This document shows, in pieces, positions 25,436 to 35,084 of a stretch of 64,000 nucleotides of DNA (the first letter of the stretch is position 1; each line of letters begins with the position of its first letter). The stretch covers positions 62,001-126,000 of the forward strand of contig JAPLDH010000047.1 in assembly GCA_026391355.1 (NCBI GenBank), read 5' to 3'. A model generated the notes under the pieces. That model was given only the letters and a program-made list of their open reading frames with translations. It ran no database searches and had not been told where the DNA came from. This DNA is from Bacteroidota bacterium (lineage in GTDB: Bacteria > Bacteroidota > Bacteroidia > Bacteroidales > FEN-979). A program made the position numbers and the translations under genes.

Positions 25436-26179
25436 ATGAAAACAATCCTTTCAACCATTATTTTGATATTGATCTTCATGGAGCCATCATTCGCTCAGAA
25501 AGGCATGGTCAAAGGAAGGATAACTGATAAAGATTCAAAGGAGGCAATCCCCTTTGCAAGTGTTGTACTGGAAAACAAAGGAATTCAGGAGGCCGGTACC
25601 ACTGCAGACCGGAACGGGGAATTTATCATTAAAGCCAATCCGTCTGTTTATACGCTTAAAGTAGCATATGTGGGATATAAGGTATTCCGGCAGGATAGTG
25701 TGAAAGTCAGGAAAAATGATACTACAGTGGTCAATATCGTTTTGACACCAACCACAACAATGTTAAGGGAGGTTAAGGTGCTGGATTATTCGGTACCGCT
25801 TTTTTCAAAGGATATGTCAACTTCCGGTGGAACCGTGACCTCGGAAGAGATCATTTCCATGAGATCTCCATCATTGGAATCGACGTCAACGGGAAAACGG
25901 GCCGGGGGTAAGATGATCACTCCGGGAGTGGGGATTCTTACTGCCGGGGAGATCAATGATTTTTCAAAGTGGGATCTTTGGGAAGATATTAAGTCGAAGG
26001 ATCTGAAAACCTGGCAGGATTACTGGGAGATGGCTCCTACCGGACGATTTACGTTCCAGGTAATTACAAAAAGGGGGAAACCGGTCGTTGATGCCATTGT
26101 TTCTCTGCAGTCGGCAAAGGGATATTCATCATCCCGGTCACGGGAAGCGGTATCGATAAAAGCACGGAATACCTCCTGA
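25436..26179 (+). CDS. N-terminal fragment of a vWA-type exported protein (carboxypeptidase-like regulatory domain), broken gene
   Basis: 247 codons. A signal peptide (MKTILSTIILILIFMEPSFA) is followed by a carboxypeptidase-regulatory-like domain (GRITDKDSKEAIPFASVVLE to VNIVLTPTTT). A family segment LTAGEINDFSKWDLWEDIKS leads into TGRFTFQVITKRGKPVVDA. In related Bacteroidota proteins as I remember them, that segment is followed by about 200 residues of von Willebrand A domain. Here the frame instead runs 27 codons into sequence that is meaningful only in another frame and stops at 26179. It is the first half of one gene damaged by an internal deletion near 26095-26110. Confidence 0.75.
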   Translation: MKTILSTIILILIFMEPSFAQKGMVKGRITDKDSKEAIPFASVVLENKGIQEAGTTADRNGEFIIKANPSVYTLKVAYVGYKVFRQDSVKVRKNDTTVVNIVLTPTTTMLREVKVLDYSVPLFSKDMSTSGGTVTSEEIISMRSPSLESTSTGKRAGGKMITPGVGILTAGEINDFSKWDLWEDIKSKDLKTWQDYWEMAPTGRFTFQVITKRGKPVVDAIVSLQSAKGYSSSRSREAVSIKARNTS

Positions 26180-26184
26180 GGTCT

Positions 26185-26811
26185 ATGGCCATGGCAACGA
26201 ACGGCCGGTACGTCTTCCTCACCGATCACAGCCATATCGGAGGAGAACACCTGATTCCAACCACCGATGAATATGATGTGTTTCTGCTGAACAAGCTTAT
26301 TCTTAAGCTTTTCGATGAGTATCTTTATACACCATCATGCAGCGATTCTGCGGTCACCAGGAAAATCGGGGATACTACCTATGTCTATAACCCCAAAATT
26401 ATTGCCCATGTTGTGTCGGATTCTTCCAGGATCAACAAATTCAACAACCCGTACAAAAAACCCGACACAAATTATGTGGTTTTCAATAACCCGCCCAACC
26501 CGGATACGACCGGGACAAAGGATACCCTTCAAAAGAATCAGACAACTGATTCAACCATCATTGAAAAAGAAAAATTCCGGAGTTTTAAATATTATCCGAA
26601 TCCCACCACTGGCAATCTGACCATCGAGGTCGACGGAGTTGTTGACCTCCTTTACCTTGCTGATATATCCGGCAAACTCCTGGCAAAATATGATATCCGG
26701 GGTCAGAAGAAGATCACGATCAATATCGGTAATTACCCTTCAGGTGTATATTTCCTGCAATGTTTCCTGGAGAACAAATGGGTTAGAGGGAAGATCATCC
26801 TGGTGCATTGA
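26185..26811 (+). CDS. C-terminal fragment of the same vWA-type protein, with T9SS type A sorting domain
   Basis: 208 codons from ATG 26185, but the frame is already homologous from about 26101, reading GIFIIPVTGSGIDKSTEYLL and then RSMAMATNGRYVFLTDHS. That is the tail of a von Willebrand A domain in the known family, continuing PTTDEYDVFLLNKL. After a Pro/Thr/Asn-rich linker comes a T9SS type A sorting domain (about residues 130-208): YYPNPTTGNLTIEV, VDLLYLADISGKLL, YPSGVYFLQCF. Without its own signal peptide it cannot be exported as it stands. It belongs with the preceding fragment. Confidence 0.7.
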   Translation: MAMATNGRYVFLTDHSHIGGEHLIPTTDEYDVFLLNKLILKLFDEYLYTPSCSDSAVTRKIGDTTYVYNPKIIAHVVSDSSRINKFNNPYKKPDTNYVVFNNPPNPDTTGTKDTLQKNQTTDSTIIEKEKFRSFKYYPNPTTGNLTIEVDGVVDLLYLADISGKLLAKYDIRGQKKITINIGNYPSGVYFLQCFLENKWVRGKIILVH

Positions 26812-26829: not shown

Positions 26830-27072
26830 CTAAATTAACCCTTCATATAAATCCCAGATTGGAAAACATAGTTCGTAGTTATTCCAGATAATATCTCCAT
26901 ATTCGATTGAAAAATCAGCGAATAAATTCTTATCCAGATATTTTCTGGTCATTGGATTCCTCGCTTTTTTTAAGAAGCTGCTAAAATCAATTATCCTGAT
27001 AATGCCATCTGAAAAAGTAAACTGTATCAGATAATCTTTCAAATATTCAGCTTTCTCAATTGATATTACCAT
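26830..27072 (-). CDS. DUF2442 family protein
   Basis: An 80-residue protein of the DUF2442 type: ISIEKAEYLKDYLIQFTFSD, GIIRIIDFSSFL, then SIEYGDIIWNNYELCF. It starts one base after the stop of the upstream DUF4160 gene, so the two form an operon. Such pairs recur in bacteria and have been suspected to act like toxin-antitoxin modules, but the activity is not established and this is inference. A single downstream partner and short length are typical. Confidence 0.75.
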   Translation of the reverse strand: MVISIEKAEYLKDYLIQFTFSDGIIRIIDFSSFLKKARNPMTRKYLDKNLFADFSIEYGDIIWNNYELCFPIWDLYEGLI

Positions 27073-27073
27073 A

Positions 27074-27376
27074 TTACAATTTTTTAGTTATTTTTTCAGG
27101 TGTGATTTCAACGTTATAAATAAAAAAATCAATCCACTTTCTCACGATATCATCTCTGTAAATTTCAACCAGTTTTAAGAATTTCTTCATATGATTGATC
27201 TTCAATGGTTTTTTACCCTCTACTTCTCTTACCACGATCTCCTTGAATTTCCCATTTTCGAAAACAATCTCCGCTTTACTTTCTGTACCTTGGTACCTCC
27301 CATGAACATGAATCGGTTTATGTTCCATTGAATAGAATAAAATGATCAGCCCGAAATATTCATAAAGTTTTGGCAT
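27074..27376 (-). CDS. DUF4160 family protein
   Basis: A 100-residue protein of the DUF4160 family. It shows the core ILFYSMEHKPIHVHGRYQG (His pair near residues 22-25), then KAEIVFENGKFKEIVVRE and NHMKKFLKLVEIYRDDIVRK. It is followed after one base by the DUF2442 gene. The biochemical role is unknown. The pair lies next to tRNA-Asp and to a damaged gene, a plausible site for an acquired module. Confidence 0.75.
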   Translation of the reverse strand: MPKLYEYFGLIILFYSMEHKPIHVHGRYQGTESKAEIVFENGKFKEIVVREVEGKKPLKINHMKKFLKLVEIYRDDIVRKWIDFFIYNVEITPEKITKKL

Positions 27377-27541: not shown

Positions 27542-27615
27542 GGTCTGGTAGTTCAGTTGGTTAGAATGCCGCCCTGTCACGGCGGAGGTCGCGAGTTCGA
27601 GTCTCGTCCAGACCG
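27542..27615 (+). tRNA. trnD: tRNA-Asp (anticodon GTC)
   Basis: The 74-nt cloverleaf has acceptor arms GGTCTGG/CCAGACC and D-arm GTTC-GAAT. The anticodon arm CCGCC-CTGTCAC-GGCGG carries GTC, and the T-arm is GCGAG-TTCGAGT-CTCGT. The discriminator base is G. CCA is not encoded. It stands alone between its promoter and terminator. Confidence 0.97.
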
Positions 27616-27628
27616 CAGATAAATATCC

Positions 27629-27693: not shown

Positions 27694-28323
27694 TCAGCCA
27701 GATTTCCTGACAACTCCTGGTTTTGCCGGAGTGACCTCTTTGACAACAAAATCCTTCCTATTAAAAGTCACCAGGATCCAGATGATAACCATGAAAAGCA
27801 ATGACGGGGCTGTTGGGTTTATATAGGAATTGAAAAAGTGTTCTATAAAGCTCTTCCGCGATTCAGAAAAGTCATACAGCATAAGCCAGGGTTTTTCTAT
27901 ACAGATATGTTGAATATAAATCCATTCCTTGAAAATAATTAATCCCGAGACAAGGATAAATCCAATAAGGAACGAAATTACCATTCGTTTCCATTTTACC
28001 GGAGAGGCAAGAATAAGTGAAAATAGAAGGACGGTCGGGAGGTAGCCAAAATGGCGGGTATTTACCTCATAAATTGCACAATGGGCTGTTCCATCCGGTT
28101 TGACCTGCGTATAATTTCCAACATAAAGTCTTGTGATGTAAGGTTTATCTTTTGATGAGAGTTTTACAAATCCGTTTTGGTGAAACCGTTGAAAAATCAA
28201 CCCACTTGATTTACGAAAAAGGTTCCCATATAGTTCATCATAAAAAGAAAACGATATCGAGAACAAAATGTAGATGACAATTGCTTTTACAAGAAAAAGA
28301 ACAATTGTTTTAGTGCGGAACAT
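27694..28323 (-). CDS. Membrane protein paired with the exosortase
   Basis: A 209-residue protein with about four membrane segments: near the N-terminus (IVLFLVKAIVIYILFSISF), then YLPTVLLFSLILAS, MVISFLIGFILVSGLII and PSLLFMVIIWILV. Between the first and second lies a 90-residue extracytoplasmic domain. I do not recognise the family. It starts inside the last 14 bases of the exosortase gene, so the two are translationally coupled and probably work together. The longer form starting at 28464 overlaps the exosortase extensively and is rejected. Confidence 0.75.
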   Translation of the reverse strand: MFRTKTIVLFLVKAIVIYILFSISFSFYDELYGNLFRKSSGLIFQRFHQNGFVKLSSKDKPYITRLYVGNYTQVKPDGTAHCAIYEVNTRHFGYLPTVLLFSLILASPVKWKRMVISFLIGFILVSGLIIFKEWIYIQHICIEKPWLMLYDFSESRKSFIEHFFNSYINPTAPSLLFMVIIWILVTFNRKDFVVKEVTPAKPGVVRKSG

Positions 28324-28888
28324 GACCTTTGTCTTTATATGCCCAGCGTATCCAGAATATCCAGAGTGCAATTGCAAAAAGAATAAAAAGCGCCTGCCAG
28401 ATTTCCACGTGCATGATCTGAAAAAGTTTCGGAGCATAAATTCCTGTAAGAAAAAGGGATACAATCCTTACCAGGTTGAGCAGGAACAGTACTACATTAC
28501 CTGCAAGGAAACCAATCAGTTTGAGTTTCCAACTGGCCGGATATGATAGTAATGCTGCAGTAAATAAGGCCATTCCCTCTATGGCATCACAACCCTTTGC
28601 AATGCTGATGGTAAATCGCGGGGAGGAGATCACCGTACCGGATACCTGTGTATGCTGTCCGAAGAGATTGAGCAGGAAATTGGATAAATGACCATATGCA
28701 GAGATGATGAAAAACCCTATACCTGTATAATAACTGCTCTCATAGAACCAATAAAACAATACGATGATCAGTGCAAAACCAAAAACAAAGAAAAGCACTG
28801 GTTTCTTTTGAAGCCATTGCATCCTGAACTTTGCAGGCCAGGTTGCTTTTGGCTTGTTCTTTCGTTTTTTATCTATCTTGTAGGCCAA
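28310..28888 (-). CDS. Exosortase/archaeosortase-family transpeptidase
   Basis: A 192-residue polytopic protein with five to six membrane segments. The three catalytic residues of the exosortase family are visible: C100 in SIAKGCDAIEGMALF, R141 in NLVRIVSLFLTG and H160 in QIMHVEIWQALFI. Exosortases cut and transfer proteins bearing a short C-terminal sorting tail. I cannot place it in a named subfamily. The start is probably TTG 28888 (LAYKIDKK), with ATG 28822 as the alternative. No protein with a recognisable PEP-CTERM-like tail is present in the window. Confidence 0.83.
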   Translation of the reverse strand: MAYKIDKKRKNKPKATWPAKFRMQWLQKKPVLFFVFGFALIIVLFYWFYESSYYTGIGFFIISAYGHLSNFLLNLFGQHTQVSGTVISSPRFTISIAKGCDAIEGMALFTAALLSYPASWKLKLIGFLAGNVVLFLLNLVRIVSLFLTGIYAPKLFQIMHVEIWQALFILFAIALWIFWIRWAYKDKGHVPH

Positions 28889-28950: not shown

Positions 28951-31900
28951 TTATTTCATCAGTTCCTTGACAGCCGCCTCAATCTGCTGATCATGGCCGG
29001 ATGTGAGCACATCAGGTGCGTTGCGGACCTTGATATCCGGTTCAAGCTGGTTGTTTTCGCAGAACCTTCCATCGGGCATACGCCATCCACCCATCGGGAT
29101 CCCAAAAACCAGTGACGGATCGATCTGGCTTTCCCACCATACGAAAGTACCTGTACCTGGTACGGGCATCCCAAGGGTTTTTCCTATATTTTTGAGTTTA
29201 TAGGCAACAGGGAAAAGATGTGCATCGGAATAATTACATTCTCCCATCAGGACGATGGAAGGTTTTACCCATTTGTCGCTTGGTTCCGAGCCTACATACT
29301 GTCCGTGAGGAATGATATCAATGTATTTCTTCCCGCTCAGGAAATCGGAGAGTTGTTCGTGAATGTTCCCACCGCCGTTGAACCGGGTATCAATGATCAG
29401 CGCTTTCTTTTCAAAATTACGCCCGAGGGCTTCTTCGAAAACGATGCGCATGCTCTCATCGTCCATTGACCTGACATGGATATAGCCAATCATGCCACCT
29501 GAAAGATCATCCACCTGCTTACGACAGTTCTTTACCCAGCGTTTGTAAAGCAGTTCACCTGCTTCCCCGCCGGAGATTGGCTTCATACTTTCTTCCCAAC
29601 GGGTATCAGCAGAAGGATCATAAACCGAAAGCAGGGTCAGTTTCCCGACTTTACGGTTTAGCAGACTATAGAAGTCTGAAGAGTCAGTAATCGGCTGTCC
29701 ATCGATCTTCTCAAGGATATTCCCGGTTTTGATTTTGGAAGTGGCCTTATCTAAAGGTCCTCCTTCGATGATCTCTGCGATCTTTAACCCATTGCCTGTA
29801 AAGCTGTAATCATAGAAAAGACCCAGGTCGGCAGTTTGATCCATATTGGGTCGGGACGTCCAATAATAGCAACCTGTGTGCGACGCATTCATCTCTCCCA
29901 GCAATTCACTCATCATCTCTGCAAAATCGAAGTTATTGTTAATATATGGCAGGAATTTTTGATAGGTTTTGTAGTAAAAATCCCAATCAACACCCTGCAA
30001 ATCCACCACATAAAATTTCTCTTTCATCAACCGCCAGCAATGGTCGAAAATATATTTCCTTTCATTGGCAGGATGGAGTAATATTTCACCACTTGTTTTC
30101 AACGGCTCAGTCTTTCCATTTTCCACTTCAACTTTCATCGGTTTACCATCGGCAAGAACAAAAATAAACTTACCATCTGCAGAAAGTTCCATACCTGCGC
30201 TTTTCGCTCCAAGCTTGGCAAAAAGCTTCGTTTCCTTGGTGCGTAATTCGGTAACCCACAAATCATTGTCCTTTTCGAAACTGGTCAGGTAAAATAGTTT
30301 CTCACAATCCTTTGAAAGCAACCAGTCACTGGCGGGTGAAGTGTGTGTGGTCAGTTTGAGCCTCCGCTCTGTAAGGTTGTCCCAGTCAATCTTAACAGCA
30401 ACCTTTATACTATCCTTTGACGATTTTCCGGCAGTATCTGCCTTTTCCTTCTTGCCGGCTTTCGTCTTTTCTTCGGCTTTCTTTTTATCTTTTTCCAGTT
30501 TTTCTTCCTGTTCCTTCACCAATGCGAGTTCTTCTTTGGAAAGTTTGAACCTGTCGAAAGCTGCTTTCGTAAAGAACATTCCAAAGACATCATCGCTGGT
30601 CAGGTTGCCGCCTTGCTGACGTGTTCCTTCGCGGTCACATCCCCAGATCATCATTTTCCCGTCCATCGACCATTTTGGGCCAAAATCGTCATAACCGCTG
30701 AGGGTAAGATTATGGATCTCTCCCTTACCGTCAGATGAAACCAGTCCTACTTCAGGAGAAAAGATCCTCTCTTTAAATGCATATTGAACAAGGAACCATT
30801 TACTGTCGGGCGACCATTGATAATACTGATCCCCGTCAGCATATGAATAATTTACCTCAGCCGGCATAATGGTACGGATCTTTTTATCAGCAAGATTGAT
30901 CACTTTCAGAATGACACGGTTTTCAAGATATGATATCTCTTTGCCATCAGGTGAATAAGAGGGTTGGAATTCTTCTGCATCTGTCGCTACAACGGTTTCC
31001 TCTTTCAACAGGGTGGATGCATAAAAGTAAGGCTCTTCCTTACGGACAATCGATGTTGTATAAACATTCCAGTTATTATTTGCTTCTGCCGCATAAACCA
31101 ACGATCGTCCGTCAGGACTGAAGCTCACCGACCTTTCCTGCCATGGAGTGTTGGTGATACGTTTTGTAATACCGCCATCGACACTGCTTACAAAGATTTC
31201 TCCGCGGAAAACATATGCGAATTCCTTTCCATTCGGAGAAAGGTGCAATTCTGTGAATCCTTCATTCACCGGAACGATCTTTTCCTGGGTGCTGCGTCCG
31301 TCGGCTGCAATCCGGATATTTACTTTTTCAGGCTCTCCTCCCGGTCGAAGAATATAAATCTCTCCATCACATGTAAAACAAAGCGTATTATTTTTTGAAT
31401 GGGTGAGAAACCTCACGGGTTGCTTTGTAAAATGGGTAAGCGCAATGGACTTTGCCGTATCCGTTATGGAGCTTTTAAAAACATTGAAGGAGCCGTTTTG
31501 CTCGCTTAAATAATAGAAATCCTTGTCGTTGGAATCGAACACTCCATTCCTGTCTTCACCTTTGAAATGGGTAAGCTGGGTATATTGTTTGGTTTTAAAG
31601 TCATACATCCAGACATCGCGGGTAACGGCGGATGTATGATGTTTCCGCCAATCGCTTTCATAGCCTTTTATGTCATGGAAGATCAGTTTATCGCCTGCAG
31701 TATTGACATTTGCGTCAATTGCCGGTGTGGGGAGCACCTGTGAAACTTTTCCACCTCCGGCCGGGACACTGTACAATTCGCCCATAAGAGAGAGGGGAAA
31801 TTGTGCATTTGTGACCACATCCTGCCGGTAGGCAGAAAATAACACATTTTTATCGTCTGCTGTAAATCCTGTAGGGATCTCCCTCCCTGAATGGAATGTG

Positions 31901-32208
31901 AGTCGTTTTGCTTCACCACCATTCACCGACATGACAAATACATCAAAATTGCCCATCCTGTCTGACGCAAATGCAATGGTTTTACCATCATGACTCCAAA
32001 CGGGAGCATATTCATAGGATTCTGTCATCGTGATTGGGATTGCAGTTCCACCGGAAGCCGGCACTGACCAGATATCTCCTTTATAAGAGAAAAGAATTGT
32101 TCTGCCATCGGGTGAAATGGATGCATATCTTAACCAGAGCGGATTTTCCTGGCAAAAAGCTGATGAAACCGCAAACATCAGCAGTGTAATAGTGATAAGT
32201 TTTTTCAT
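28951..32208 (-). CDS. Tricorn-like S41-family protease
   Basis: A 1085-residue exported protein (signal MKKLITITLLMFAVSSAFC). Residues 25-560 carry two TolB/WD40-like beta-propellers (WLRYASISPDGRTILFSYKG, APVWSHDGKTIAFAS). A Lys/Glu-rich linker at about 570-610 is followed by a PDZ domain near 830-890. The C-terminal S41 core has ALIIDTRFNGGGNIHEQL and VLMGECNYSDAHLFPVAYK, in which the Ser before Asp is the expected nucleophile. This domain order matches Tricorn protease homologs that degrade peptides. It probably acts in the periplasm. Confidence 0.9.
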   Translation of the reverse strand: MKKLITITLLMFAVSSAFCQENPLWLRYASISPDGRTILFSYKGDIWSVPASGGTAIPITMTESYEYAPVWSHDGKTIAFASDRMGNFDVFVMSVNGGEAKRLTFHSGREIPTGFTADDKNVLFSAYRQDVVTNAQFPLSLMGELYSVPAGGGKVSQVLPTPAIDANVNTAGDKLIFHDIKGYESDWRKHHTSAVTRDVWMYDFKTKQYTQLTHFKGEDRNGVFDSNDKDFYYLSEQNGSFNVFKSSITDTAKSIALTHFTKQPVRFLTHSKNNTLCFTCDGEIYILRPGGEPEKVNIRIAADGRSTQEKIVPVNEGFTELHLSPNGKEFAYVFRGEIFVSSVDGGITKRITNTPWQERSVSFSPDGRSLVYAAEANNNWNVYTTSIVRKEEPYFYASTLLKEETVVATDAEEFQPSYSPDGKEISYLENRVILKVINLADKKIRTIMPAEVNYSYADGDQYYQWSPDSKWFLVQYAFKERIFSPEVGLVSSDGKGEIHNLTLSGYDDFGPKWSMDGKMMIWGCDREGTRQQGGNLTSDDVFGMFFTKAAFDRFKLSKEELALVKEQEEKLEKDKKKAEEKTKAGKKEKADTAGKSSKDSIKVAVKIDWDNLTERRLKLTTHTSPASDWLLSKDCEKLFYLTSFEKDNDLWVTELRTKETKLFAKLGAKSAGMELSADGKFIFVLADGKPMKVEVENGKTEPLKTSGEILLHPANERKYIFDHCWRLMKEKFYVVDLQGVDWDFYYKTYQKFLPYINNNFDFAEMMSELLGEMNASHTGCYYWTSRPNMDQTADLGLFYDYSFTGNGLKIAEIIEGGPLDKATSKIKTGNILEKIDGQPITDSSDFYSLLNRKVGKLTLLSVYDPSADTRWEESMKPISGGEAGELLYKRWVKNCRKQVDDLSGGMIGYIHVRSMDDESMRIVFEEALGRNFEKKALIIDTRFNGGGNIHEQLSDFLSGKKYIDIIPHGQYVGSEPSDKWVKPSIVLMGECNYSDAHLFPVAYKLKNIGKTLGMPVPGTGTFVWWESQIDPSLVFGIPMGGWRMPDGRFCENNQLEPDIKVRNAPDVLTSGHDQQIEAAVKELMK

Positions 32209-32411: not shown

Positions 32412-35084
32412 ATGAAAAAAATATGCAGGAGTGGATCTTTCATTCTTATCGTGTTCTTTCCTTTATATCTTTTCTCCCAGGGAAGTTGGAATCCCCCGGG
32501 GGCCAATCTCAGTTCCCCGCGTATTTTGCTGGATAGTGCGGATATCCCGCTTGTCAGGGCTACCCTTACAGATCCTGAGATCCTTTCCTTGTATGGTTCG
32601 GTATGGCAAAATGCACACAGTAACCCACCGGCAGGCAACGCTACGGATGGTGACCGGATAACCCGCGCTATGATTGCCAAAGAAGCTGCTTTTATCGTGC
32701 TCATGGACAGAAAATTCGATCAAGGTAATATTGTCCCATTGCCGGCAGAAGAAAAGGATTCACTGATCAGTTTATCAAAAGGACTTCTCCAGGATATGAA
32801 TACAGAAGTGGGGTACCAATCGGGATGGACATTTTATAACTCATGGCAGCACCGGTCAAAGGAACTGATCACCTGCCTCATTGCCTATGATCTTCTGCTG
32901 GGTGCAGGTCTTTCCGGCTTACAGTTGCAGCAATCCAGGGATTCCCTGATCAATTTCACCACTCATTTGTATCAAAGGGCGATGGCAACCTATACTGTGT
33001 TTTTTATCCAGTTGAAATTTTTTTCTTACCAGGTTAACAATCATAGCATCATGGCTTCATCGGCATTAGGCCTTTCAGCGGTTCTTTTCAATGACCACGA
33101 AGATACAGATACCGATCGCCAGCCGCTGAACTGGATCAATGCGGGCTTATGGAACCTGGATAATACATTATGGGTGGAAAATGGCAGTTATCCGAGGGTT
33201 TCAGAACCTGATACACTGGCAGGGTATGCAGAAGGTCCCGATTATTTTGAATATGCCTTCCAGAATGCCTTCCCATTTATCCGTGCGATGGGAAATTTTT
33301 TACCGAATGGGAGCTATCCTGTTACTTTCAACGGGGAGACACGGGAAATCCCCAATCCATGGTACGATTCAAGGTATGACAGGTTATATGACTGGTTAAA
33401 CAAGATCCGGATGCCTGATGGCAGCCTGCCTGCCATACATGACAGCAGGATCGGTTTCGGGACGGTGATTGCAGCATTATCCGGAAAACCAAAATACAAC
33501 CGGGTCAACCCGGGCTTTACGGCTGATGATCCTTTCATCCGCACTCAGTATATTGCAACCCGCGTGGTGCACGGAACCATTGATGACAGCCTGTTCCAGG
33601 CATTACCTGCAGCCGGGAGCGTGGTATTCCGGTCTTCATGGGATACGAATGCAGTTTATCTGCATTTTATTGGCAAGCATGGCATTGCATTGACGGGAGC
33701 AAAGTCGCATCACCAGGGCGACGCCACGAGTTTCTCACTCTCTGCTTACGGCAGGTTGCTGGCTGTTGATCCCGGTTATGCAGGAGCCTCACAAAGCAAT
33801 ATCATCAATAAAGCTTCTGACCATAATCTTTTACTTGTAAATGGCTATGGACCCCAGCCCCCAATGGGTGAAACGGTGAATACCCAAACCAACACGTCAT
33901 TTATTGAAAACTTTTTTCATACTCCTTTGCTGGATTATGGTGAGGTGAGATCCTCCTACCTTGGAGTTGACATTATCCGCAAAACTTTGTTTATCCGTTC
34001 AAAATATTTTTTTCTGACAGATTTTCTTTCTTCACCCTATAAATTCGATTATACTTTTCAATTACACGGCAATGGATTGCTGAACAGTGATCCGGGCAGT
34101 CAGGAAGGTGCATTCATTCCGGATACCCTGAACAAAAAATGTTACTATCAAAGGGATTCTGTCACTCTGCTTGCACAGATCATATCAGGAAGTGATTCAA
34201 CAACTTGTCATTATGAACTGGATAGCCTCTCTGGACCGATGGATATTTTTCGACATTATTCCAAATTCCTGGTGACACAAAAGAATATTGATACCACACT
34301 CTTTCTCACTACTTTATTTCCTTACACTTCTGTTGTGCCCCTCGAATTACCTGTAATTACTTCAGCTTCGGCAGTGGCTTGCAGGATTACTGACAGCGAT
34401 TGGCACGACTTTATTTTTTGTACGACAGGTAGGAAAGCAATTATGGTTCCAGCCGATTCATCCGGTCTTTCTGAATCATTGTACGGTAACGGGAAGGTCA
34501 ATTTCTTTTCAGAGACTCCTGCCAAACGATTCTCTTCAGCCTATATCCAGGCAGGAGATACACTCCTGTCAGGCCGGCAACCGGTCATCATTGCAAATAA
34601 AAAGCTGGATGTTGCATTTGAAAACTGCGGAACCGGTTGGGCAGGGTTTGTTTCTGACAGCGGCGTGGTCTGTTTCTTCACGGAAACTCCGGTACATGCG
34701 GTGAAGGGGCACATTACCGGCATTCAGTATGACCAGGTCAAAAAACTTGCCTGTGTAATCTTTTCTGAAAAGGGAAATTTTATGTTGGCTGCAGGAGAGG
34801 GGCTTGATGATAAACGCGAGGGTATTGAAAGTTTACAAATAAAAGTATTTCCCAACCCTTCCATGGATGGAGTCTTTACCGTCAATATTGAAAACCGGAA
34901 AGGAAGCCAGGTTTTCATTTGCGTTTTCGACCTTTCGGGCAGACAGTTGCCTGAAATTCCCGGAAGTGTACTACAGGGTAATTCCTCCTTTAAAATAGAT
35001 CTTAATAACAAGCCGGCAGGATGTTATATCCTTCATATTTGTTATTCAACCGGAGAACAGGAAGTTCTCCTTATGAAGTTGTAG
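32412..35084 (+). CDS. Heparinase II/III-like exported protein with T9SS sorting domain
   Basis: An 890-residue protein with a signal peptide (SGSFILIVFFPLYLFSQG). An alpha-helical toroid-like N-terminal half (PRILLDSADIPLVRATL, AYDLLLGAG) leads to a beta-sandwich of the heparinase II/III type, recognisable by GAKSHHQGDATSFSLSAYG and LLAVDPGYAG near residues 430-455. The last 80 residues are a T9SS type A sorting domain (VFPNPSMDGVFTVNI, PAGCYILHICYS). It is most likely a cell-surface or secreted polysaccharide lyase; the polysaccharide is unknown. No SusC/SusD pair is nearby. Confidence 0.82.
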   Translation: MKKICRSGSFILIVFFPLYLFSQGSWNPPGANLSSPRILLDSADIPLVRATLTDPEILSLYGSVWQNAHSNPPAGNATDGDRITRAMIAKEAAFIVLMDRKFDQGNIVPLPAEEKDSLISLSKGLLQDMNTEVGYQSGWTFYNSWQHRSKELITCLIAYDLLLGAGLSGLQLQQSRDSLINFTTHLYQRAMATYTVFFIQLKFFSYQVNNHSIMASSALGLSAVLFNDHEDTDTDRQPLNWINAGLWNLDNTLWVENGSYPRVSEPDTLAGYAEGPDYFEYAFQNAFPFIRAMGNFLPNGSYPVTFNGETREIPNPWYDSRYDRLYDWLNKIRMPDGSLPAIHDSRIGFGTVIAALSGKPKYNRVNPGFTADDPFIRTQYIATRVVHGTIDDSLFQALPAAGSVVFRSSWDTNAVYLHFIGKHGIALTGAKSHHQGDATSFSLSAYGRLLAVDPGYAGASQSNIINKASDHNLLLVNGYGPQPPMGETVNTQTNTSFIENFFHTPLLDYGEVRSSYLGVDIIRKTLFIRSKYFFLTDFLSSPYKFDYTFQLHGNGLLNSDPGSQEGAFIPDTLNKKCYYQRDSVTLLAQIISGSDSTTCHYELDSLSGPMDIFRHYSKFLVTQKNIDTTLFLTTLFPYTSVVPLELPVITSASAVACRITDSDWHDFIFCTTGRKAIMVPADSSGLSESLYGNGKVNFFSETPAKRFSSAYIQAGDTLLSGRQPVIIANKKLDVAFENCGTGWAGFVSDSGVVCFFTETPVHAVKGHITGIQYDQVKKLACVIFSEKGNFMLAAGEGLDDKREGIESLQIKVFPNPSMDGVFTVNIENRKGSQVFICVFDLSGRQLPEIPGSVLQGNSSFKIDLNNKPAGCYILHICYSTGEQEVLLMKL

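Follow-up and report, generated by a model that had tools for sequence, protein, structure and literature searches.

Which sorting system, if any, does an exosortase belong to when its gene runs into that of a small membrane protein, and what is that partner? The pair lies in the window, i.e. the whole 64,000-nucleotide stretch analysed here, and was originally predicted to be, perhaps, a less-studied exosortase subtype with a dedicated accessory protein. The features concerned are:

28310..28888, minus strand: predicted exosortase H (XrtH), 192 aa, TTG start, putative catalytic residues C100/R141/H160 (by TIGR04177, TIGR04178 and the invariant triad)
27694..28323, minus strand: XrtH-adjacent partner membrane protein, 209 aa, four spans (by hhalign against XrtH and XrtF)
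28310..28323, minus strand: 14-base overlap of the enzyme and partner frames (by ORF coordinates)

Locus layout

The partner ORF extends over 27694-28464(-), and its ATG at 28323 yields the 209-aa product, which starts within the last 14 bases of the enzyme ORF. Together with four hydrophobic spans at residues 7-25, 91-109, 114-132, and 168-186, this bears out the overlapping four-span partner described at the outset. A tricorn-like protease gene (28951-32208; Tricorn_C1, Peptidase_S41, and PD40) lies upstream of the pair on the same strand, and a tRNA-Asp (27542-27616) downstream on the opposite strand. Matches to promoter-like (8 vs. 5.0 in shuffles, sd 2.4) and terminator-like sequences (3 vs. 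1.7 in shuffles, sd 1.3) around the pair are near background and were left out. T9SS tails (Por_Secre_tail) at 26185-26808 and 32412-35081, near the pair, agree with the earlier remark that this genome also uses T9SS sorting.

The first of these T9SS frames (26185-26811) lies within 6 bases of a CarboxypepD_reg-like frame on the same strand (25436-26179), and the two may be one gene broken by a stop or frameshift. Small adjoining genes with DUF2442 and DUF4160 domains are also present (26830-27376, minus strand), a pairing which we take to resemble a toxin-antitoxin-type module.

Identity of the enzyme

The enzyme is a member of the exosortase/archaeosortase superfamily, scoring 56.5 bits against the signature model TIGR04178 (cut-off 23) and 40.3 bits against Pfam Exosortase_EpsH (cut-off 25.7). 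Against the XrtH model TIGR04177 it reaches 87.3 bits (87.1 in the phylum genome search) for a cut-off of 86, a small margin of 1.3 bits over a cut-off that is passed in 2 of 395 phylum genomes. Assignments to XrtX (NF046081; 63.7 bits vs. a cut-off of 170), XrtM (52.4 vs. 125), and XrtF (TIGR04128; 52.3 vs. 90) were rejected, as was an archaeosortase by the curated cut-offs. On its curated scores, the enzyme is exosortase H, a named subtype.

The catalytic positions in the original prediction are correct. Residues C100, R141, and H160 are kept in all 14 enzyme homologues, whose alignment has nine invariant columns in total (G99, C100, G126, G130, N138, R141, L145, F156, and H160). An AlphaFold model of the enzyme is of low confidence (mean pLDDT 55.8), and an exosortase profile searched against the PDB gave one match, a cytochrome bc1 subunit at E = 0.86, taken as chance.

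Conservation of the pair

An order-level search covered 149 genomes, 42 of which have an exosortase match at E ≤ 0.001. Besides the source genome, close relatives of the enzyme (E ≤ 1.6e-43) occur in just two genomes of the order (G094 and G039), both with an adjoining partner; matches of E 4e-4 to 2e-3 with internal stops, in G076 and in two additional fragments of G039, were left out. A wider contig scan with the enzyme added one relative, on a record labelled uncultured Bacteroidetes bacterium (L045), and a plasmid scan returned two records, both Methylomonas XrtM.

A partner profile built from four sequences matched 10 of the 395 phylum genomes, including the source genome. Eight of the nine non-self matches adjoin a match to the XrtH model, the exception being a 552-aa frame in G304 (E = 9e-4) with no adjoining XrtH, which was treated as false. 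Two separate exosortase/partner pairs in a further genome, G257 (L122 and L123), were missed by the profile and found by position. This brings the total to 14 pair loci (source locus included), spread over 13 genomes or records, and the partner adjoins XrtH in all 14, a count in which some loci were collected by position. The frames overlap by 14 bases in both the window and L045, by 11 in G094, and by 4 in G039.

Sorting tails and candidate substrates

Exosortases normally have cognate C-terminal tails, and none had been seen near the pair. This holds for the window, where no IPTL-type tail was found, and fails for the genome, where three tails lie unlinked on other contigs. Two exceed the cut-off of the IPTL-CTERM model (TIGR04174, 20.5 bits), one in a 403-aa frame (contig C64, 27.5 bits) and one in a 278-aa frame (C29, 26.8 bits). 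The latter protein (L213:135-968) carries an ice-binding domain (PF11999, 124.6 bits), which suggests a surface-attached ice-binding or adhesin-like protein. The third tail, with the variant motif IPVFSRWG, ends a 640-aa frame (C59) and was found at E = 3.1e-4 with a profile of 14 tails. By eye, all three frames begin with a signal-peptide-like hydrophobic stretch. The genome-wide C-terminal search first proposed as a check did recover tails. The 14 training tails of the profile include the two strong tails of the source genome; the profile also finds tails in all four pair genomes that contributed no training row (G306, G535, G344, and G308; E ≤ 5e-10).

Among the relatives, tails often stand beside the pair. 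For example, IPTLSEWG, a helix, and RRRK close the gene that precedes the G094 exosortase, the two genes that precede the G039 exosortase carry tails with IPTLSQWG and IPTLTHWG, and a gene past the pair in L045, on the other strand, ends in VPTVSEWG; all are IPTL-CTERM sorting signals (TIGR04174, PF18203). Three IPTL-tail genes lie just upstream of one of the G257 pairs. Altogether, tail genes are present in the fetched stretch at 8 of 14 pair loci (G094, G039, L045, G340, G360, G171, G212, and one G257 locus), and were not found in the stretches fetched for the other six (the source, G535, G344, G308, G306, and the other G257 locus).

Co-occurrence of the pair and the tails

Across the phylum, IPTL-CTERM exceeds its cut-off in 11 of 395 genomes, i.e. 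in 8 of 10 with the pair and in 3 of 385 without (Fisher P = 5e-13, kinship ignored; the sample includes two same-genus pairs, G344/G535 and G212/G306). The ten pair genomes are the nine that the partner profile gives once G304 is removed, and G257, which was found by position; without this post hoc addition the plain counts are 7 of 9 vs. 4 of 386. The two pair genomes under the tail cut-off, G340 and G360, have adjoining genes with the variants SVPSLGEWG and PVPTVTEWG, and the tail-positive genomes without a detected pair are G314, G241, and G283. Among the 72 other listed genomes with an exosortase, a single one has IPTL-CTERM over the cut-off (G314, 20.7 bits). IPTL tails follow the XrtH pair, not exosortases in general.

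The partner as a probable diverged exosortase homologue

As a single sequence, the partner matches the XrtH model TIGR04177 weakly (16.1 bits, residues 97-131), and its two Pfam matches are both under their cut-offs. The model for the exosortase H-associated membrane protein (NF041730, cut-off 35 bits) has no match to the partner in the source genome. Of the 14 partners, NF041730 is matched by 6 at E ≤ 0.1 (the best at 1.6e-4) and the XrtH enzyme model by 5 at the same threshold. A G094 partner matches NF041730 over residues 4-127 of 184. None reached the NF041730 cut-off in a search of 12 genomes; the top bit score shown for a relative is 21.2.

Profile comparison gives a stronger signal. With hhalign, the partner profile aligns to XrtH with a score of 53.1 (probability 93.7, E = 2e-7), compared with 20.0 for the reversed XrtH profile, 19.2 for the best of 30 column shuffles, and 15.0 and 17.0 for a UbiA-like and a 5-span family, respectively, both polytopic and unrelated (20 sequences apiece). 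Disjoint partner subsets of 4, 3, 5, and 2 sequences match XrtH with probabilities of 93.7, 74.9, 77.1, and 36.7. The match to XrtF exosortases, whose sequences played no part in finding the partners, scores 65.0 (probability 96.1, E = 3.2e-9) over 158 columns. Five XrtX-like exosortases, the frames passing a motif filter out of 28 loci scanned, align over the same stretch with a score of 36.7 (probability 55.2).

In alignment, partner and exosortase share the register and the WK/G landmarks, and the triad is gone. Enzyme residue C100 corresponds to H91 in the partner and R141 to K132. The counterpart of H160 is F164, as given by the four-sequence comparison, which alone extends that far. Over the 14 partners, the Cys column holds no Cys, the Arg column holds Lys in nine and Arg in none, and no column has His in seven or more sequences. 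An AlphaFold model of the partner (mean pLDDT 52.4, low confidence; helix, helix, two strands, three helices) was made, like that of the enzyme, with the window and L045 sequences as input, and from the models just the helix order was used; the partner's spans and model fit the helix order of the enzyme. Since both models are of low confidence, a shared fold rests on the profile comparison and helix order. The protein first described as belonging to no recognised family is thus, by profile comparison, very probably a diverged and catalytically dead exosortase homologue, and NF041730 may be a dead-exosortase family too.

Alternative readings

An accessory of the NF041730 kind without exosortase ancestry, with a profile match produced by a generic likeness of membrane helices, would also explain a partner next to XrtH. 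It would occupy the same slot, and the NF041730 matches of 6 of the 14 partners, together with the G094 match over residues 4-127, speak for it. Against it, the scores of the XrtF accessory and of two unrelated polytopic families lie between 13 and 17, as opposed to 53 and 65 for the partner; the register and WK/G landmarks agree with exosortases, and each of four disjoint partner subsets matches XrtH, although one of these (2 sequences) has a probability of just 36.7. We regard this explanation as unlikely.

The marginal XrtH score and the lack of linkage between pair and tail genes in the source genome would fit a separate, unnamed exosortase subtype with other targets, its matches to XrtH and IPTL being coincidental. 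Coincidence accords poorly with tail genes in the fetched stretch at 8 of the 14 pair loci, with the co-occurrence of IPTL-CTERM and the pair (8/10 vs. 3/385), and with a single tail-positive genome (G314) among the 72 others with exosortases, and we consider such a subtype very improbable. What stands of the less-studied subtype originally envisaged is its accessory, which is co-encoded and not named by the curated models scanned; the subtype itself has a name, XrtH, with a score over the cut-off. A named pair with known targets, which was to refute that prediction, exists as far as the enzyme (TIGR04177) and the targets are concerned; the accessory corresponds to NF041730 by position, not by score.

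The source genome holds a second exosortase (L041:9249-9893, minus strand; G000, contig C17), which is XrtX-like at 100.2 bits vs. a cut-off of 170. In principle, the IPTL tails could be its substrates as well, leaving the pair redundant or decayed. Both pair frames are intact, the enzyme's triad is kept, and the tail class follows the XrtH pair rather than exosortases generally, all of which makes this the least probable of the explanations considered, with hardly any weight. By eye, the C17 exosortase adjoins a gene run resembling polysaccharide biosynthesis, and no pair-type partner was seen beside it.

Proposed sorting mechanism

We conclude that the pair is likely an exosortase H sorting system with the partner as a pseudoenzyme subunit, the two probably forming one sorting complex; what we infer comprises the cleavage, the transfer, the existence of a complex, and the role of the partner. 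The host is taken to be a Bacteroidota, given its T9SS tails and the Bacteroidetes label of its nearest named relative. Exosortases and archaeosortases generally use a Cys nucleophile assisted by Arg and His, and cut the tail close to its motif, on the outer side of the inner membrane, after which the protein passes to a surface anchor. Exported proteins would here be held in the inner membrane by a tail in which the motif I/V-P-T-L/V/M-x-x-W-G precedes a hydrophobic helix, with a few basic residues after it. The XrtH active site (C100, R141, and H160) would lie at the membrane's outer face, the side being presumed, with C100 as the nucleophile and R141 and H160 assisting. XrtH would then cut the tail near the motif and transfer the protein to a surface anchor. 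The three unlinked tail proteins, i.e. the ice-binding-domain protein (C29), the 403-aa frame (C64), and the 640-aa frame (C59), are the candidate substrates.

Because the genes overlap and adjoin, and because the proteins appear to share ancestry, the partner most likely forms one complex with XrtH, where it would, as its pseudoenzyme subunit, assist in binding or positioning the tail of the substrate. The pair is read as an active enzyme and a pseudoenzyme subunit since the partner is homologous to exosortases, has the same helix layout, and lacks the triad. The more specific proposal, that XrtH is a two-subunit enzyme in which a catalytic exosortase works with a co-encoded dead homologue, the latter holding or selecting the IPTL-CTERM tail, stands in our judgment at even chances. 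If true, it would mean a pseudoenzyme-enzyme heterodimer in a protein-sorting family for which the sequence search yielded no solved structure. A partner that is a dead exosortase would also explain the XrtH accessory gene, predict a heteromeric enzyme, and provide a concrete structural model for substrate handling by exosortases. Assigning the pair to a named sorting system, one whose substrates can be identified, opens its function to testing.

Comparison with known systems

The XrtH/IPTL-CTERM system is already known; what appears new, so far as the literature was searched, is the dead-exosortase identity proposed for the accessory. The matches listed in a search of mostly open-access literature include none about XrtH or about a catalytically dead partner of an exosortase. 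The window enzyme resembles the known system (TIGR04177 with TIGR04174 / PF18203) in its curated score, its triad, and the IPTL-CTERM proteins of its genome. It departs from a typical case in the marginal score, in targets that are unlinked in the source genome, and in the variant motifs of this genome and its relatives (VPTLGEWG, VPSLGEWG, and IPVFSRWG). A predicted IPTL-CTERM tail is described for an S-layer protein of Methylomirabilis lanthanidiphila (PMC8671808).

The partner is like NF041730 in being an XrtH-adjoining, multi-span membrane protein with weak matches among some relatives, and unlike it in that the window protein has no match and the relatives scanned stay under 35 bits where bits are shown. 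XrtX (NF046081) is a related exosortase present in diverged form elsewhere in the source genome, and it differs from the window enzyme by curated score (63.7 vs. 170). An exosortase setting that we did not expect occurs in G267 and G483 (L124:5338-5910 and L125:5225-5770), where the gene lies, by eye, between DUF58-like and von Willebrand A (Bat-type) genes; neither belongs to the XrtH pairs.

A parallel in gene content is XrtF with the exosortase F system-associated protein (TIGR04128 / TIGR04127), which likewise combines an exosortase with the gene of an accessory membrane protein. In Flavobacterium johnsoniae, deletions validated both xrtF and the accessory gene as genes for surface colonisation (Fjoh_1448 and Fjoh_1449; PMC10936215). 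The window enzyme differs from XrtF by score (52.3 bits vs. 90), and the XrtF accessory (18 sequences) scores 13.0 against XrtF, i.e. no detectable homology. A general rule by which exosortase accessories are dead exosortases is thereby rejected. Accessories of different exosortases seem instead to differ in origin, which suggests that they arose more than once.
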